Source: Candidatus Saccharibacteria bacterium RIFCSPHIGHO2_12_FULL_49_19 (lineage in GTDB: Bacteria; Patescibacteriota; Saccharimonadia; Saccharimonadales; UBA10212). Taken from it: a DNA stretch of 35,238 bases. This document shows, one piece after another, positions 13,558 through 20,980 of the stretch. Both the position numbers and the translations under genes were made by a program. The notes under the pieces are model-generated. The model did not search any database. It was not told where the DNA came from and saw only the letters and a program-made list of their open reading frames with translations. The stretch spans positions 1 to 35,238 of the forward strand of contig MGCX01000037.1 in NCBI GenBank assembly GCA_001788565.1. The letters are read 5' to 3'. Within the stretch, counting starts at the first letter, position 1. Every line of letters begins with the position of its first letter.

Positions 13558-14304
13558 ATGAGCAGTGAAGTGGTATTACCTCTGGAGTCCAGTAATGACG
13601 TGCGGCTAGTCGGGGGTAAGGCCGCTTCGTTATGCCAGCTAATACAGGCTGGATTTAATGTTCCCAAGGGTTTTGTAATAACAACTAAAGCGCTTAAGTC
13701 GGATAGCAAGAGTTTAGAGGCTTCCATTTTGAATCATTATGATCGACTGGGCACCAAGTACGTTGCTGTTAGGTCGAGCGCGGCAAACGAGGACGGTAAG
13801 AACGCTTCTTGGGCCGGACAGTTTGACACATTTCTAAACACCGACCGAGCTGACTTAATAGAAAATATAAAAAAGTGCTGGGCTTCTGCCAAGTCAGGCA
13901 GAGCCAGGGCTTATGCGCGAGGTAGAAGTCTGGAAACAGGGGCAGTGGCAGTGATTGTGCAAGCTATGGTTAACGGCCAAGTAAGCGGGGTAGCCTTTTC
14001 TGTGCATCCGGTAACTAAAAACCCAGATCATATGGTCATAGAAGCAGCACCAGGCCTAGCCGAAGATGTTGTTTCTGGTACAGTCACACCGGATAATTAC
14101 GTTTTTGATAAGAAAAGCGGCTCGGTCGTTGACGGAACGCTGGCTAGCACAAAGGCACACCTCTTTAATAAACAAATAAAAGATGTTGCCGTGGCGGTCC
14201 AAAAGCTAGAAAGCTATTTTGGTTTCCCTGTAGACGTGGAGTGGGCGTTTTCTAACGGCGAGCTCTTTATCTTACAAAGCCGCCCGATAACAACATTGGG
14301 CTAA
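13558..14304 (+). CDS. PEP synthase/PPDK-like ATP-grasp (pyruvate phosphate dikinase N-terminal) domain protein
   Basis: GGKAASLCQLIQAGFNVPKGFVIT, VAVRSSAANEDG, GVAFSVHPVT, VEWAFSNGELFILQSRPIT. Confidence 0.85.
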   Translation: MSSEVVLPLESSNDVRLVGGKAASLCQLIQAGFNVPKGFVITTKALKSDSKSLEASILNHYDRLGTKYVAVRSSAANEDGKNASWAGQFDTFLNTDRADLIENIKKCWASAKSGRARAYARGRSLETGAVAVIVQAMVNGQVSGVAFSVHPVTKNPDHMVIEAAPGLAEDVVSGTVTPDNYVFDKKSGSVVDGTLASTKAHLFNKQIKDVAVAVQKLESYFGFPVDVEWAFSNGELFILQSRPITTLG

Positions 14305-14313
14305 ACTATTGTT

Positions 14314-15414
14314 ATGGCGGACGAGAGGCAGGCCGAACTTTACCAGACTCAAATATCTTTAACTGAGTGGCTTGATAATATCGGCCATAAGGATACCGGA
14401 GCCATCCGCAAAGAGGATAATAACAAACGCGAACGCCTGGCCGTACTTAAGCAGGTCGTGGGAATACCGTACGACGAGCAGGTTAAATTTGAGGCGGTGG
14501 ACTTGCGCGACAAAAAACCGGCCTTTGTTAAATATATGAAGGAGCACGGCGATGAACTGTGCGCCCTACGGTTAATACCCAAAAGGGACAGCCTACCTAA
14601 GCTCCGGCTCCGCGGCGAAACGGTAGCCGGCGTTTACGACTGGTTTTTAAAACAGGATATTAATGCCGAGGATTACCGCGCGGAATATATTCCACATTCA
14701 GATGATTACAAATGGTCGACTATTTTTATCGTTAATAATCATGGCATCCAGGGCGAAGTCATTCGGGGACCGCATTACCAACTGACCCAAGGTTTTTTCG
14801 ACCATGGCAAGCCCGCTGTGTTCAAATTTGATTTTAAAAAGTGGCATTTGTCCAAGAATGACCAGCCAGCTGAAAAACACCTAAAAATGGTAGCCAAGTT
14901 TTTACATATTCCCGATAAAAACAAGCAAAATCAGATAAAAAAACAGCTTAACGGCGAATTCATAAATGATTATTTACTGGGGTATTACGAAACGATTTAT
15001 AGCCAGCAGTATGGTTTATGGTACGTGGATTACAGCCAGAGTTTAGGCAAAATGTACGAAGATTTTCTGATTGAGACTGAATCGAAACCGGTTAAAACCG
15101 CTGTTGTTAAGGGTATGGCCGGCAGTCCCGGCAGAGCCAGGGGTCCAGTCCGCATAGTGGAGCAGGATAAAATTGATATGGATTTTCCGGATGGCGGCGT
15201 GCTGGTCTGCTCCGTTACTACGCCAAATTACGTTCCGCTGATGCAAAAAGCCGCTGCGATTGTAACCGATCAAGGCGGCATTTTATCGCACGCCGCCATC
15301 GTCGCCCGCGAGCTTAAAAAACCATGCATTGTTGGGACCGGCAATGCCACCCAATTATTAAAAAACGGCCAAGTCATATCCGTGGATGCCAACTTAGGGG
15401 TGGTCACCCGATGA
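14314..15414 (+). CDS. protein with C-terminal PEP-utilizing phosphohistidine (swivelling) domain and unassigned N-terminal domain
   Basis: VTTPNYVPLMQKAAAIVTDQGGILSHAAIVARELKKPCIVGTGNAT; no PEP-binding TIM barrel. Confidence 0.8.
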   Translation: MADERQAELYQTQISLTEWLDNIGHKDTGAIRKEDNNKRERLAVLKQVVGIPYDEQVKFEAVDLRDKKPAFVKYMKEHGDELCALRLIPKRDSLPKLRLRGETVAGVYDWFLKQDINAEDYRAEYIPHSDDYKWSTIFIVNNHGIQGEVIRGPHYQLTQGFFDHGKPAVFKFDFKKWHLSKNDQPAEKHLKMVAKFLHIPDKNKQNQIKKQLNGEFINDYLLGYYETIYSQQYGLWYVDYSQSLGKMYEDFLIETESKPVKTAVVKGMAGSPGRARGPVRIVEQDKIDMDFPDGGVLVCSVTTPNYVPLMQKAAAIVTDQGGILSHAAIVARELKKPCIVGTGNATQLLKNGQVISVDANLGVVTR

Positions 15415-16022: not shown

Positions 16023-16793
16023 ATGTCAAGACAATATGATTATCCTGTTGACCGGATTGCCGAGAGAATTGGTGATGTATTCAGTGGTTGGCAGGCAAAG
16101 GAAGTTGTCACCTCTAGAACTGATAGAAATAGTTTTCTGGACAATTATGACCTTTGGATGGAGGGGTTGCGGGCTGGTCCTGATCATCCGAATAATTTTG
16201 CCGTGAGTAAGACTGGTGGCCATTTTTCAGAGCTTCCCCTACTGTGGAGTGAGTTCGAGAAAGATCCTGCCGAGGATAAAATGAGTGCAAAGCTTTTATA
16301 TCGGTACTTGATGTTTGTATCCGGGACACATCGTAATATTTCCGCACTGCGCGCGTCTGACGCTGATGACTACCTTACGCGCCGGGCTGGACCGTTAGCT
16401 GTAGATCCCGAAACCGTTGCAAGATCGATACTCTACAACATTCTAAGTGGTATGGACAGACTGAGTGAGGCTCACATTAGTGCCGAGCAAGTCGGTGAGG
16501 AACTCGAACGGACACGTAAGTTTGGCGAGGCTGCAATTTACATGATGTGTGAGCGCGTTGGAACAGATTTTGGGCAACAATACTCGAGGTCAGAACTTGA
16601 GATGTTGTTTGCTCAATCCAACTGGTTAAAGCTAGCCACAAAACACGTTGTGCTATCGGCCAAAATCCGCGGCGGTAGGTTAGAAGAGGTTCCCTTCCAG
16701 CACCCCATGAACAGAACTGATAACCCCGGAATCTACTTTCCCTTCAGCACGGAAGCAGCGTCTACGCCCCAAGCGGCCACGACTGCTAGCTAA
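16023..16793 (+). CDS. hypothetical protein
   Basis: 256 aa ORF, not recognised; TATAGT 8 nt before ATG. Confidence 0.6.
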   Translation: MSRQYDYPVDRIAERIGDVFSGWQAKEVVTSRTDRNSFLDNYDLWMEGLRAGPDHPNNFAVSKTGGHFSELPLLWSEFEKDPAEDKMSAKLLYRYLMFVSGTHRNISALRASDADDYLTRRAGPLAVDPETVARSILYNILSGMDRLSEAHISAEQVGEELERTRKFGEAAIYMMCERVGTDFGQQYSRSELEMLFAQSNWLKLATKHVVLSAKIRGGRLEEVPFQHPMNRTDNPGIYFPFSTEAASTPQAATTAS

Positions 16794-17221
16794 CTCCAGC
16801 TTTTCCCTTGTAGTTCGACGTACTCTTCAAACAGTTTTGGTACTGGATGTGGGACCGCATAGTCCCCAAGGTCTTCTGGTTTAACCCACGCAAAATCGTC
16901 ATGTTCGCGGCTGAGTCGGACTTTATCAGAATCCGCTTCGCACAAATAAAAAATGGCAATTATCTGATGCTTTACTCTCTCTATGGTCGGAAACCAACCA
17001 TCAACCATCATCGGCATGGCTGGCTTTACACTTAGGCCGGTCTCCTCCTTTGCCTCCCTAATTAAGGCATCCATGAAAGGTTCACCTATCTCCACCATGC
17101 CCCCGGGGATTTGATATTTGCCGGCTTGGGTTCCGTCCGCAGCGCTTTCCCTTAATAACAGTAGTTTGCCCTTGTACCGAATAAGGGATTTTGCGGCTAC
17201 CCTCAAAACAGGCTCAGTCAC
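16790..17221 (-). CDS. Nudix hydrolase
   Basis: Nudix box GGMVEIGEPFMDALIREAKEETGL; GTG start. Confidence 0.9.
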   Translation of the reverse strand: MTEPVLRVAAKSLIRYKGKLLLLRESAADGTQAGKYQIPGGMVEIGEPFMDALIREAKEETGLSVKPAMPMMVDGWFPTIERVKHQIIAIFYLCEADSDKVRLSREHDDFAWVKPEDLGDYAVPHPVPKLFEEYVELQGKSWS

Positions 17222-17769
17222 AGTTCGCCCCAGTTTTTGCCGGTGGCAATTTTACTAAGTAAGTTTTTTTCATAGCCATGGTTTGCCCAGCTTTCTGGAT
17301 TAAACTCTTTCAAAATATCCACCGCTTCTTTCCATACCACTTGCTCAACTTCATCTTCCTCAGTCTTTAGATCTTCTACCGATCCTTTCCAACTAACCAT
17401 AAATGCGCCTAGATGTTCTCTGTCTGCAAAATTTCTTTCTGGTTCATCTTGAGTGTTTTTATAAATCAAAACCTGTCTAAAGGCTTTTTCCGGTAAATCT
17501 ATTCCAGTTTCTTCGAATAATTCTTGTTTGGCGCAAGATACATAGGATTGCCCTGGAGCCGCGTGGCCACCAAAGTTTGTCTGCCATTTTCCCGGATTGG
17601 TATCTTTTTTGAGTGATCTTTGCTGGCATAAAACTTTAGTACCATTCACTACCCACACGTCTGTTGCACGGTGCCAGATTGCCTTACTATGAGCTATACC
17701 CCGAGCCACTGGCTCAATTGGGTTATTATTCTCATCAACTGTAAAGAGTAGCTCTTTTGGGTCAATCAT
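17218..17769 (-). CDS. Nudix hydrolase, IDI-like
   Basis: GGHAAPGQSYVSCAKQELFEETGIDL; ends GKNWGEL. Confidence 0.85.
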   Translation of the reverse strand: MIDPKELLFTVDENNNPIEPVARGIAHSKAIWHRATDVWVVNGTKVLCQQRSLKKDTNPGKWQTNFGGHAAPGQSYVSCAKQELFEETGIDLPEKAFRQVLIYKNTQDEPERNFADREHLGAFMVSWKGSVEDLKTEEDEVEQVVWKEAVDILKEFNPESWANHGYEKNLLSKIATGKNWGEL

Positions 17770-18338
17770 AACTCGCCCCAGTTATGGTGAATAGTGTCCT
17801 CCACGGCTTTTAGGGCCTCGGGGGAGAGTCTATCGGCAGCACCAAATACGTAGAACCTAAAAGCTTCAGCGAAAGCCTCGTGGGGTTCTTCACTGCCATA
17901 CTTGGTGGGGCTAAACTTGGGGTCTAGCCTGCTGTAGGAGTCTCCGCCGGATAGCTTGTCTAAGATATGTCCGGATTCGTGAACTAATTCACTGGTAAGT
18001 GTGCTCCAAGGTTGATCCTTGATATCTGGCAACAGGTTGATTGTGTCGCCAGATTCGATAATCCCTTGCTCGACTAAGTAGTCTTCCGATTGTTGCAAGC
18101 TCATCATGGCATCGTCACTGTTGCAGACAATTTCTTTATTTTCAAAGTCCACGTGCGAACCGCGTTTTTCATCGGACTTAAAGAAACGAATCCGGAACTG
18201 CTTCAGCAATTCCATTTGAGCAGGAGTAAGTTTTGCGGCAAGCGCCTCGGCGGCGGCATTTACTGCTAACTGGCACTCCGGGTCTAAAACTGGGCCCAGA
18301 ACCTCAAACGAGCTCGGCTTCAGCGGTTCCTCACTCAT
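17766..18338 (-). CDS. zincin-like putative metallopeptidase
   Basis: TSELVHESGHILDKL (HExxH) followed by EEPHEAFAEAF; ends NWGEL. Confidence 0.6.
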   Translation of the reverse strand: MSEEPLKPSSFEVLGPVLDPECQLAVNAAAEALAAKLTPAQMELLKQFRIRFFKSDEKRGSHVDFENKEIVCNSDDAMMSLQQSEDYLVEQGIIESGDTINLLPDIKDQPWSTLTSELVHESGHILDKLSGGDSYSRLDPKFSPTKYGSEEPHEAFAEAFRFYVFGAADRLSPEALKAVEDTIHHNWGEL

Positions 18339-20980
18339 AGTTCGCCCCAGTTCTTGCCGCTACTGACATCAACTTTGAGCTTCACTGGCAGCTTGTAAGC
18401 GCTTTCCATAACATCCTTGACCGTTTTACCAACCTTATCGGCTTTGCCAGCTGGGCATTCCAGAAGCAGGCTGTCGTGGATTTGCAGCAGCATCTTGCAG
18501 TCGTCATCCAGCTTATCAGCCACCTTAATCATCGCTAGTTTCATGATGTCGGCCGCCGTGCCTTGGGCCGGCATATTGATAGCCGCCCGATAAGCCGCTT
18601 CGCGGACCGCGAAATTGGACGATTTTACATCTGGCGTCGGCCGGCGCCGACCCAGCATAGTCTCCACATAACCCTGCTCTAGAGCCAGTTTCCTAGTTTT
18701 CTCGATATATTCTTTCAGTTTTGGCCGCACCAAAAAGTAGCGCTCAATAAACGCTCTCGCCTGGCCAAAACTCATGCCCGTTCCCTCGGCCAAACCATGC
18801 GGCCCCTGGCCGTAAAGCAGTCCGTAATTGACCGCTTTGGCCTCGTACCTCTGTTGTTTGGTTACTTCTTCTGGTTTAATCCCGTGCACGGCCGCAGCCG
18901 TCAGCACATGAATATCCTCGTCCTTGTTAAAAGCTTCAATCATGCTTTTTTCGCCCGCTAGTACGGCAGCCAGTCGTAACTCAAAGTTGCTGTAATCAGC
19001 GCTAACCAGCACGTTGCCCTTCTCTGCCACAAAAGCTTCACGGATACGCTTGCCCAGCTCTGTTCTCACTGGAATATTTTGTAAGTTGGGATCGGCGCTG
19101 GACAGCCGGCCGGTTGGCGCAATAGTCAGACTGAAAGTGGTGTGCAGGCGGCCATTCTTATCAACCATTTGCGGCAAAGTATCCAAATAAGTACTTTTTA
19201 GCTTGGTCATCTCGCGGTACTGGCTAATCAAGTTGATAATCGGGTGCAGCTCACGCAGCTTAAAGAGCTCGCTAGCTGCCGTGGAGTAGCCGCTTTTGGT
19301 TTTTTTGATACTAGCCGTCGGCAGGTTCAGTTTTACAAACAAGATATCTGCTAGCTGAGCTGGCGAGCTGATGTTGAACTCGGAATTGGCATGGCCGTAG
19401 ATTGTTTGCTCGATATCGCTGATTTGCCCTTCCAGCTCCGCTGAAATCTTCTTTAGTTTGGCCGAGTCAAGTTTTATACCCTCTAACTCCATATCGGTTA
19501 GTATCGGTGTTAGCGGCCACTCCACCTCCCGTGCCAGCTTGGCAACTTTTGGCAGCTTGGCTAGCTCTTTGGTTTGCTTAGTATGCAGCTCCGAAATAAT
19601 AGCGATAATTTCCGGTAATCGCTCAATGAAATCCTCGGTTGGCAAATCGCCGTAAGCCGGGCCGTCATAACCCAGCTGGTCGGCTGCCAAATCGGTGAGG
19701 CTTTGGTTTCGAACTAGAGAATTAATCAGATAGCTGGCGACCAGCACATCATGAGCCGCTTGGCCGTAAGGCAATCCCAAGTTTTTCAAGACTTTTAGAT
19801 CAGATTTAACATCATACCCAATCAGTTTTTTAGACTCGAGACTCAAGACTCGAGACACAAGGCTTGAAGGGTTGAGTTTGGTTAAGTCCAGGATGTATAT
19901 TGATTTATTGTCGCCGACGGCCAGAACTTGGGGATTTTCACCGTGTTTGCCAGCCGCTCGGGAGTGGATAAAAAACGGTCCGGAACCCTTGAGTTTAATA
20001 TTACCCAGCTCTTTACCGGTGTTGACCGCCGCAGCTTTGGGCAGTTTCAGCTTCAAACTACCAGCACTCACCGATTTACCCACCGTTTGCATGCCCGGCG
20101 GCAGGATATTAAGCAGGCTCTTAAACTCCAGCTGCTGCAAAAGTTCCCGGAGTTTATAAGTATCAATCTTGGTTCCGTCCACCTCTGATAAATTGAGCTT
20201 CACGGGCGCATTAGTCCAGATTTCCAGCAATTTTTTGGACAGATAAGCCGATTCTTTACCGGCCTCCAGTTTGGTCCGCAGTTTATCAGGGACTTTATCC
20301 AGATTTTTATAAACCTCATCTAAGGTCTCAAACTTTTGCAATAGCTCTATCGCGCCTTTGGGTCCAATACCCGGTACCCCCGGTACGTTGTCGCTGCTAT
20401 CGCCAGTGATGGACTTGTAGTCTAAAAACTGCTCGACTTTCAAGTTATATTTGTCTTCAAAGCTTTCCGGATGAAACAGTTCAATATTAGAAAAGCCGCG
20501 TTTTAGCGCGTAGACGTGAGCATGGTGGTTGATAACCTGCAGAATATCCAGATCAGAGGTAATTAGCATGGTTTCGATGTTTTTTTTGGCGGCCTGCACC
20601 GCTAGGGTGCCCATGATATCGTCGGCCTCGTAATCATCCAGTTCATAAAGCGGCCAACCGAAGGCCTGCAGTAGCTCGTGAAGTATCGGAATCTGGGCAT
20701 AAAAATCCGGCGGCGGAGCCTTGCGTCCGGCCTTGTACTCCGGATACATTGCCTTGCGCTTGCGGATGTTGGTCTTGGGCTTGTCCCAAGCTACTGCCAC
20801 ATAGTCGGGCTTTAGTTTTTTAAGAAGTTCCAGCGCCATGGCCGCGAAGCCATACACTCCGCCAGTTGGAGTACCGTCTTTGGTAGAAAGGTTGGGCAGC
20901 GCGTAATAACCCCTGTAAAAAACAGACTTCCCATCAATAATCGCCAACTTCTTTCTCTCGGCCACATTCATATTATCCAC
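18335..20980 (-). CDS. polA: DNA polymerase I
   Basis: 5'-3' exonuclease, 3'-5' exo-like and polymerase domains (SADYSNFELRLAAVLAGE, RRYEAKAVNYGLLYG-type region, QIHDSLLLECP); ends GKNWGEL. Confidence 0.95.
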   Translation of the reverse strand: MDNMNVAERKKLAIIDGKSVFYRGYYALPNLSTKDGTPTGGVYGFAAMALELLKKLKPDYVAVAWDKPKTNIRKRKAMYPEYKAGRKAPPPDFYAQIPILHELLQAFGWPLYELDDYEADDIMGTLAVQAAKKNIETMLITSDLDILQVINHHAHVYALKRGFSNIELFHPESFEDKYNLKVEQFLDYKSITGDSSDNVPGVPGIGPKGAIELLQKFETLDEVYKNLDKVPDKLRTKLEAGKESAYLSKKLLEIWTNAPVKLNLSEVDGTKIDTYKLRELLQQLEFKSLLNILPPGMQTVGKSVSAGSLKLKLPKAAAVNTGKELGNIKLKGSGPFFIHSRAAGKHGENPQVLAVGDNKSIYILDLTKLNPSSLVSRVLSLESKKLIGYDVKSDLKVLKNLGLPYGQAAHDVLVASYLINSLVRNQSLTDLAADQLGYDGPAYGDLPTEDFIERLPEIIAIISELHTKQTKELAKLPKVAKLAREVEWPLTPILTDMELEGIKLDSAKLKKISAELEGQISDIEQTIYGHANSEFNISSPAQLADILFVKLNLPTASIKKTKSGYSTAASELFKLRELHPIINLISQYREMTKLKSTYLDTLPQMVDKNGRLHTTFSLTIAPTGRLSSADPNLQNIPVRTELGKRIREAFVAEKGNVLVSADYSNFELRLAAVLAGEKSMIEAFNKDEDIHVLTAAAVHGIKPEEVTKQQRYEAKAVNYGLLYGQGPHGLAEGTGMSFGQARAFIERYFLVRPKLKEYIEKTRKLALEQGYVETMLGRRRPTPDVKSSNFAVREAAYRAAINMPAQGTAADIMKLAMIKVADKLDDDCKMLLQIHDSLLLECPAGKADKVGKTVKDVMESAYKLPVKLKVDVSSGKNWGEL

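Follow-up and report, generated by a model that had tools for sequence, protein, structure and literature searches.

Minimal mobile elements are reportedly a system of Neisseria, described by Saunders and Snyder. They are defined by the exchange of whole genes at a fixed place (PMC3082526), and a displaced gene end together with a restored one is the signature of islands at tRNA genes (PMC4383910). Here, we describe an array of genes stacked behind polA, the gene for DNA polymerase I, in a 35,238-nucleotide stretch of contig MGCX01000037.1 of Candidatus Saccharibacteria bacterium RIFCSPHIGHO2_12_FULL_49_19 (the whole stretch is called the window), and compare it with these and other known systems. 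Saccharibacteria are tiny, host-dependent bacteria, and reduced, host-dependent Patescibacteria are, to our knowledge, not known for integrons. In the array, polA and the two unrelated genes that follow it end in the same DNA and the same peptide, and copies of the polA end recur behind polA in relatives. On balance, the polA 3′ end is probably a recurrent landing site at which promoterless genes are inserted through the short homology of this tail, without a dedicated integrase.

Organization of the polA Array

The window comes from an assembly of 687,463 bases (G000) that is 92% complete, and its nearest polA relatives mark the organism as a member of Candidatus Saccharibacteria. An earlier note on this DNA had claimed that PolA, a zincin-like protein and an IDI-like Nudix hydrolase share their end in DNA and in peptide (NWGEL and stop), which is confirmed, with the core of the repeat at 17218, 17766 and 18335. 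The stop codon, a Shine–Dalgarno (SD)-like GGGG and the ATGA or GTGA overlap, which the note had placed within each repeat, are seen at the junctions in the window, and from polA through the zincin-like, IDI-like Nudix and MutT-like Nudix genes each start lies inside the preceding stop. The array is laid out as follows:

18335..20980, minus strand: polA (DNA polymerase I, 881 amino acids, C-terminus SSGKNWGEL), anchor gene and source of the repeat; Pfam DNA_pol_A 6.4e-141 and 5′-3′ exonuclease domains
18335..18358, minus strand: tail copy 1, the polA 3′ end, GGCAAGAACTGGGGCGAACTATGA; includes the SD-like GGGG and the ATGA at which the following gene starts
17766..18338, minus strand: cassette gene 1, open reading frame (ORF) for a zincin-like protein of 190 amino acids with an HESGH motif, ending DTIHHNWGEL
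17766..17789, minus strand: tail copy 2, CACCATAACTGGGGCGAGTTATGA, 18/24 against polA, in frame with the zincin end
17218..17769, minus strand: cassette gene 2, IDI-like Nudix hydrolase (Nudix1), 183 amino acids, ending ATGKNWGEL; Pfam NUDIX 2.3e-15
17218..17241, minus strand: tail copy 3, GGCAAAAACTGGGGCGAACTGTGA, 22/24 against polA
16790..17221, minus strand: gene after tail copy 3, MutT-like Nudix, 143 amino acids, GTGA overlap, ending GKSWS; Pfam NUDIX 1.1e-17

Throughout the whole assembly, the degenerate 18-base core AACTGGGGCGARYTRTGA has three matches only, the ones at 17218, 17766 and 18335, all behind polA and in one orientation; in this genome, chance alone would by our estimate yield about 1e-4 matches, and the backward control pattern gave 0 matches in the same assembly. 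The homology has sharp borders, about GGC-AA on the left and the stop codon on the right, and the differences among the three cores (GAA/GAG, CTA/TTA/CTG) are synonymous without exception. The IDI-like Nudix gene is atypical in composition, with 34.8% G+C at third codon positions against 56.7% for polA. For the zincin-like protein, the Pfam match is sub-threshold only (ATLF, E 0.06), which leaves the protein without a family assignment, and the cassette genes matched no defence-system model beyond a Nudix one. Homologues of the MutT-like Nudix stand directly behind polA at loci L129 and L154 (30-35% identity). Its GKSWS end had been suggested to be a decayed copy of the tail; the resemblance is there (GGAAAAAGCTGGAGTTAG against GGCAAAAACTGGGGCGAA, 12/18), and such a decayed copy is possible but weak. 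We use the word cassette for the architecture of the array and not for a mechanism. An Rfam search of the window returned one tRNA and nothing else.

Copies of the polA End in Related Genomes

The polA 3′ region of the window was compared with those of 94 further genomes of the same order, giving 95 loci. Nearly all Saccharibacteria polA encode the end GxNWG[EDKQ]L, in agreement with an origin of the tail in PolA, as the earlier note had proposed. Extra copies of the polA end were found downstream of polA, about 13 of them clear, in 10 genomes (the window's included) from three families; these loci make up 10 of the 95 surveyed, with 8/15 in family f1 and the remainder in f9 and f16. Eleven of the 13 clear copies are in frame, and two are non-coding scars. 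The copies in the relatives are:

G001: extra polA end on a Nudix gene, HKNWGDL
G002: extra polA end on a Nudix gene, RKNWSEL
G005: extra polA end on a Nudix gene, GQDWSEL
G008: extra polA end on a Nudix gene, GIDWGEL
G058: extra polA end on a Nudix gene, 23/24 identical to its own polA
G023: extra polA end on an AAA_33 kinase gene, 24/24 identical
G015: three extra ends, on a methyltransferase (GQNRGQL), an 84-residue protein of unassigned family (GKNWGGL) and a kinase (GKNWGEL)
G004: non-coding scar behind a methyltransferase gene
G006: non-coding scar behind a two-gene toxin-antitoxin-like module

The genes between tail copies thus include Nudix, methyltransferase and P-loop kinase genes, the 84-residue protein and the toxin-antitoxin-like module, spread over f1, f9 and f16, and this variety supports the proposal of the earlier note that genes were inserted at the polA 3′ end. 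A restored polA end with a displaced copy at the far border is clearest in G004 and G006. In a comparison, made without prior choice, of the last 24 bases in 2,852 same-strand gene pairs from the 95 loci, the top-scoring pairs were polA-tail copies, tandem paralogues aside. Over 503 kb, close matches to polA ends lie nine times on the same strand and once on the opposite one. What is copied is the last 18 to ~55 bases of polA.

Selection offers a different explanation, in which the tail is favoured because it tags the C-terminus of the protein or strongly couples translation, and no gene is inserted; its spread would be by gene conversion or convergence. The synonymous differences in the window core, the in-frame position of 11/13 clear copies, the SD-like pairing of the tail and the tail difference between G058 and G072, which have the same gene order (below), would suit it. 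However, selection on the peptide cannot account for the scars in G006 and G004, since these are non-coding; moreover, identity takes in bases ahead of the SD-like stretch and is as high as 24/24, the same proteins elsewhere lack the tail, and a copy can be nearer to another genome's polA than to its own. We regard this explanation as quite improbable.

The ends of G003 (GRDWS) and G009 are possible decayed tails, suggestive only. An apparent second copy in G108 was rejected as a contig-end overlap and no repeat, and extra pattern matches in G184, G008:C9 and G138 turned out to be unrelated or to lie in other genes. A 24-mer search of viral contigs matched nothing but a family-A DNA polymerase of phage type, on a contig from IMG/VR (L267:2983-5472). 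It ends FGKNWGEL, its last 7 residues identical to those of Saccharibacteria PolA.

Distribution of the Tail among Homologous Proteins

If the tail were a property of the place, the same proteins would lack it elsewhere, and the earlier note's expectation of orthologues without NWGEL was borne out. The best homologues of the window's Nudix1 in other contexts (G204, G151, G113 and others) align to residue 174-179 and have no NWGEL. The Nudix of the type found in G058 (L111-type) carries the tail in 4/5 polA-adjacent copies against 0/25 elsewhere (Fisher p 1.8e-4), and comparison with L272 and L279 indicates that the tail in G058 replaces just the last few residues of the natural Nudix end. The zincin homologue in G043, which belongs to another family and lies directly behind polA, ends RDKL, with no NWGEL. 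The tails belong to the polA-adjacent place rather than to the proteins. Vertical inheritance, by which the Nudix family would simply end this way, can point to four related NudixA proteins behind polA (40-51% identity) that all end W[GS]xL. It is contradicted by the tailless state of the 25 homologues elsewhere and of the polA-adjacent one in G072, and by the 23/24 identity of the G058 copy to its own polA; it is largely refuted and very improbable.

A Transfer with a Breakpoint in the Tail

Genomes G004 and G011 belong to different genera, and their polA DNA is ~70% identical overall. Identity is 68% at positions -150..-17 relative to the polA stop and 95.5% from -17 through at least +361, onward into the methyltransferase gene, with 95% at third positions. 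The jump falls 17 bases before the polA stop, inside the tail, and the pair shows a recent horizontal transfer with its breakpoint there. The right border of the shared stretch lies beyond the end of the G011 contig, and this is the one recent transfer that was resolved. Two copies look foreign to the polA beside them: the 48-base copy in G004 has 6 mismatches against the polA of G001 and 15 against its own, and the copy in G001 (ending GDL) has 2/24 mismatches against the polA end of its congener G014 and 4/24 against its own. Both fit a displaced or imported polA end.

Two further elements were seen near these ends. At loci L073 and L074, ~260 to 157 bases before the polA stop, there is a palindromic repeat, GGCGATGGTAGCGG ... 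CCGCTACCATCGCC, then ATCCTGAGCGGAGCGATAGC; in both G004 and G011 it interrupts the polA coding sequence without breaking the reading frame, the two copies are 96% identical, and they recall the palindromic elements of Rickettsia. Further inserts of this kind are suggested by the longer C-termini that PolA has in G003, G009 and G015. The second element, starting TTNGTTCCATTTTGTNTCGGCAAAACGGAACCCAAAANCCGAC, is structured and apparently non-coding, with a hairpin and then more stems (L069:1418-1600, L073:1676-1780, L130:498-580, L250-L265). Two polA-tail scars are immediately followed by it, in G085 it lies 28 bases beyond polA, and a scan of three polA loci gave no Rfam match for it. It is dispersed and multicopy in Saccharibacteria (8 in G077, 3 in G074), and its reading as native polA downstream sequence after the G006 and G004 scars was rejected on that ground.

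Gene Turnover behind polA

A gene abuts polA directly, with its start within -5..+3 of the polA stop, in 45/95 loci. These genes fall into 22 clusters, among them several Nudix, methyltransferases, nucleoside triphosphate (NTP)-pyrophosphohydrolase-like proteins, AKR, HAD, deaminase, kinases and others, where several of the names rest on sequence motifs and not on profile searches. The surrounding framework is polA ... HAD / fpg / holA, with shuffled genes between.

Such a framework is what an exchange of the minimal-mobile-element kind would leave, in which whole genes are swapped after transformation by homologous recombination in long flanks and the tail repeats are incidental duplications. 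The natural competence of Saccharibacteria (PMC10633639) agrees with it as well. It fails to explain the repeated 18-24 base copies at gene ends, and the identity between G004 and G011 stops at -17 in polA, the separate palindromic insert aside; we consider it unlikely.

The tail pairs with an assumed anti-SD sequence at a mean of -5.9 kcal/mol, against -2.8 for other polA windows. Since the polA end pairs in this way, a gene placed behind it would get a free ribosome-binding site.

On the other side of the array, the window encodes a 256-amino acid ORF (16023-16793, plus strand), convergent with the array, that had no Pfam, NCBIfam or PADLOC match; a similar ORF lies opposite the array of L063. 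Farther off, a phosphoenolpyruvate (PEP) synthase-like protein is split into an ATP-binding ORF and an adjoining PEP-utilizer mobile-domain ORF (13558-14304 and 14314-15414), and the split pair also lies opposite polA in L062 and L068.

Search for a Recombinase and a Structured Site

The earlier note had seen no recombinase in the window, and no recombinase ORF was recognised in the arrays of the relatives either; a genome-wide search linked no dedicated recombinase to the arrays. A census of 16 genomes found a tyrosine recombinase in 15/16, with one per genome in most of family f1. The sole tyrosine recombinase of G000 scores 133 bits on the integron-integrase model (cut-off 265) and above the XerA-type cut-off; by these scores it is of the Xer type, not the integron type. 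No integron-type integrase (IntI) was found in G000, whose assembly is 92% complete. Serine recombinases occur in 3/16 genomes, G000 included; the array-bearing G001, G002, G004, G005, G006, G008 and G015 have none. The one in G000 is a large serine recombinase of 503 amino acids (L300:457-1968, contig C38), on a contig other than the window's. Within the tail, no attC-like hairpin was found (folding at -0.5 to -2.1 kcal/mol, z above 0), nor any convincing inverted-repeat (dyad) arms.

These data bear on a site-specific reaction, in which a trans-acting recombinase, Xer-like or from a visiting element, would integrate circular one-gene cassettes, with a copy of the polA end serving as their attP, in the way that islands enter at tRNA genes. 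Consistent with this are the G004/G011 breakpoint inside the tail, the one-gene units with a repeat at the 3′ end in one orientation, the single conserved Xer-like tyrosine recombinase (some tyrosine recombinase is present in 15/16 genomes of the census), and the displaced and restored ends, the classical island signature (PMC4383910). However, the tail has neither inverted-repeat arms nor a hairpin, no array holds an integrase, serine recombinases are missing from most array-bearing genomes, and copy length is not constant. A site-specific reaction is thus somewhat unlikely.

Proposed Mechanism

Insertion through the short homology of the tail would proceed as follows. An incoming promoterless gene would be taken up as DNA from a related cell, and the short homology of the polA end would serve to join it at that site. 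What had been the polA end, carrying its ribosome-binding GGGG and the start codon of the former neighbour, would be pushed downstream and persist there, either fused in frame as the C-terminus of the new gene or as a scar without coding function. Retention of the displaced end would be explained by what it carries, the ribosome-binding site and the start of the gene that follows, and repeated rounds would give an array of the form polA-tail / gene-tail / gene-tail. The ATGA/TAATG overlaps suggest that the cassettes are promoterless. Saccharibacteria have natural competence and recombine the DNA that they import (PMC10633639), and this competence, together with the negative search for a recombinase and for structure in the tail, favours short-homology recombination of imported DNA. 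Natural transformation with such recombination may suffice, without a dedicated integrase, which is the least certain step. Read from the genomes alone, the polA end has been duplicated, the genes behind it have turned over, sequence has moved horizontally with a breakpoint in the tail, and the tail is absent elsewhere; the joining reaction of the strands we infer.

Several observations weigh against this reading. Genes behind polA in G014, G043 and G072 are tailless, so insertion need not leave a copy. The order polA-NudixA-NudixB is common to G058 and G072 with the tail in G058 only, so that a tail may have been copied or lost. The left boundary of the copies varies (18 to ~55 bases), and no same-species empty/filled pair exists among the surveyed genomes. 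The -17 breakpoint fits recombination at the tail itself better than exchange via long polA arms. The pairing energy with the anti-SD does not differ between coupled and uncoupled polA. Post-tail genes are seen first behind polA elsewhere in 7/12 cases against 104/353 for other genes of the region (p=0.04), and hardly differ from local genes (28/64). With this control, support for a preference of such genes for the first place is weak, since the region as a whole is a pool of shuffled genes.

The short-homology reading would make the end of a housekeeping gene a gene-acquisition site across Saccharibacteria families. As the ribosome-binding site and start overlap are already in place, a promoterless gene that arrives there should be expressed immediately, and the locus would be a concrete place at which these genomes gain nucleotide-metabolism and toxin-antitoxin genes. 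It would account for the NWGEL ends common to unrelated proteins and is testable in cultivated, transformable Saccharibacteria. More tentatively, and with some doubt, the polA 3′ end might be a gene-capture platform of Saccharibacteria, a fixed, self-duplicating attachment site that is regenerated by cassettes added in trans and builds integron-like arrays without the integron integrase.

Comparison with Known Systems

In the open-access literature, we found no paper describing polA-tail arrays, nor Saccharibacteria or Patescibacteria integrons or cassettes. Coupled operons with ATGA overlaps also have a stop/start overlap and an SD-like stretch in the upstream gene, whereas in ordinary overlaps unrelated genes do not have 18-24 near-identical coding bases in common. 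Minimal mobile elements resemble it in placing different whole genes between conserved genes in a naturally transformable lineage, but their definition includes no repeated junction and they form no stacks behind a repeat, while the polA breakpoint lies in an 18-24 base repeat. Integron arrays (IntI/attC) are likewise tandem, promoterless single-gene units in one orientation, with a short repeated site at the 3′ end and an anchor at one end. The polA array departs from them in two defining features, with no IntI found and no folded attC-like hairpin; its repeat is polA coding sequence, and a housekeeping gene serves as its anchor. Islands and prophages that sit at the 3′ ends of tRNA, tmRNA and some protein genes share with it the restored target end, the displaced fragment at the far border and the possibility of tandem insertions. 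In contrast to them, the polA units are mostly single genes of ~0.5-0.7 kb with no integrase, and the inserted gene reads in frame into the displaced polA end.

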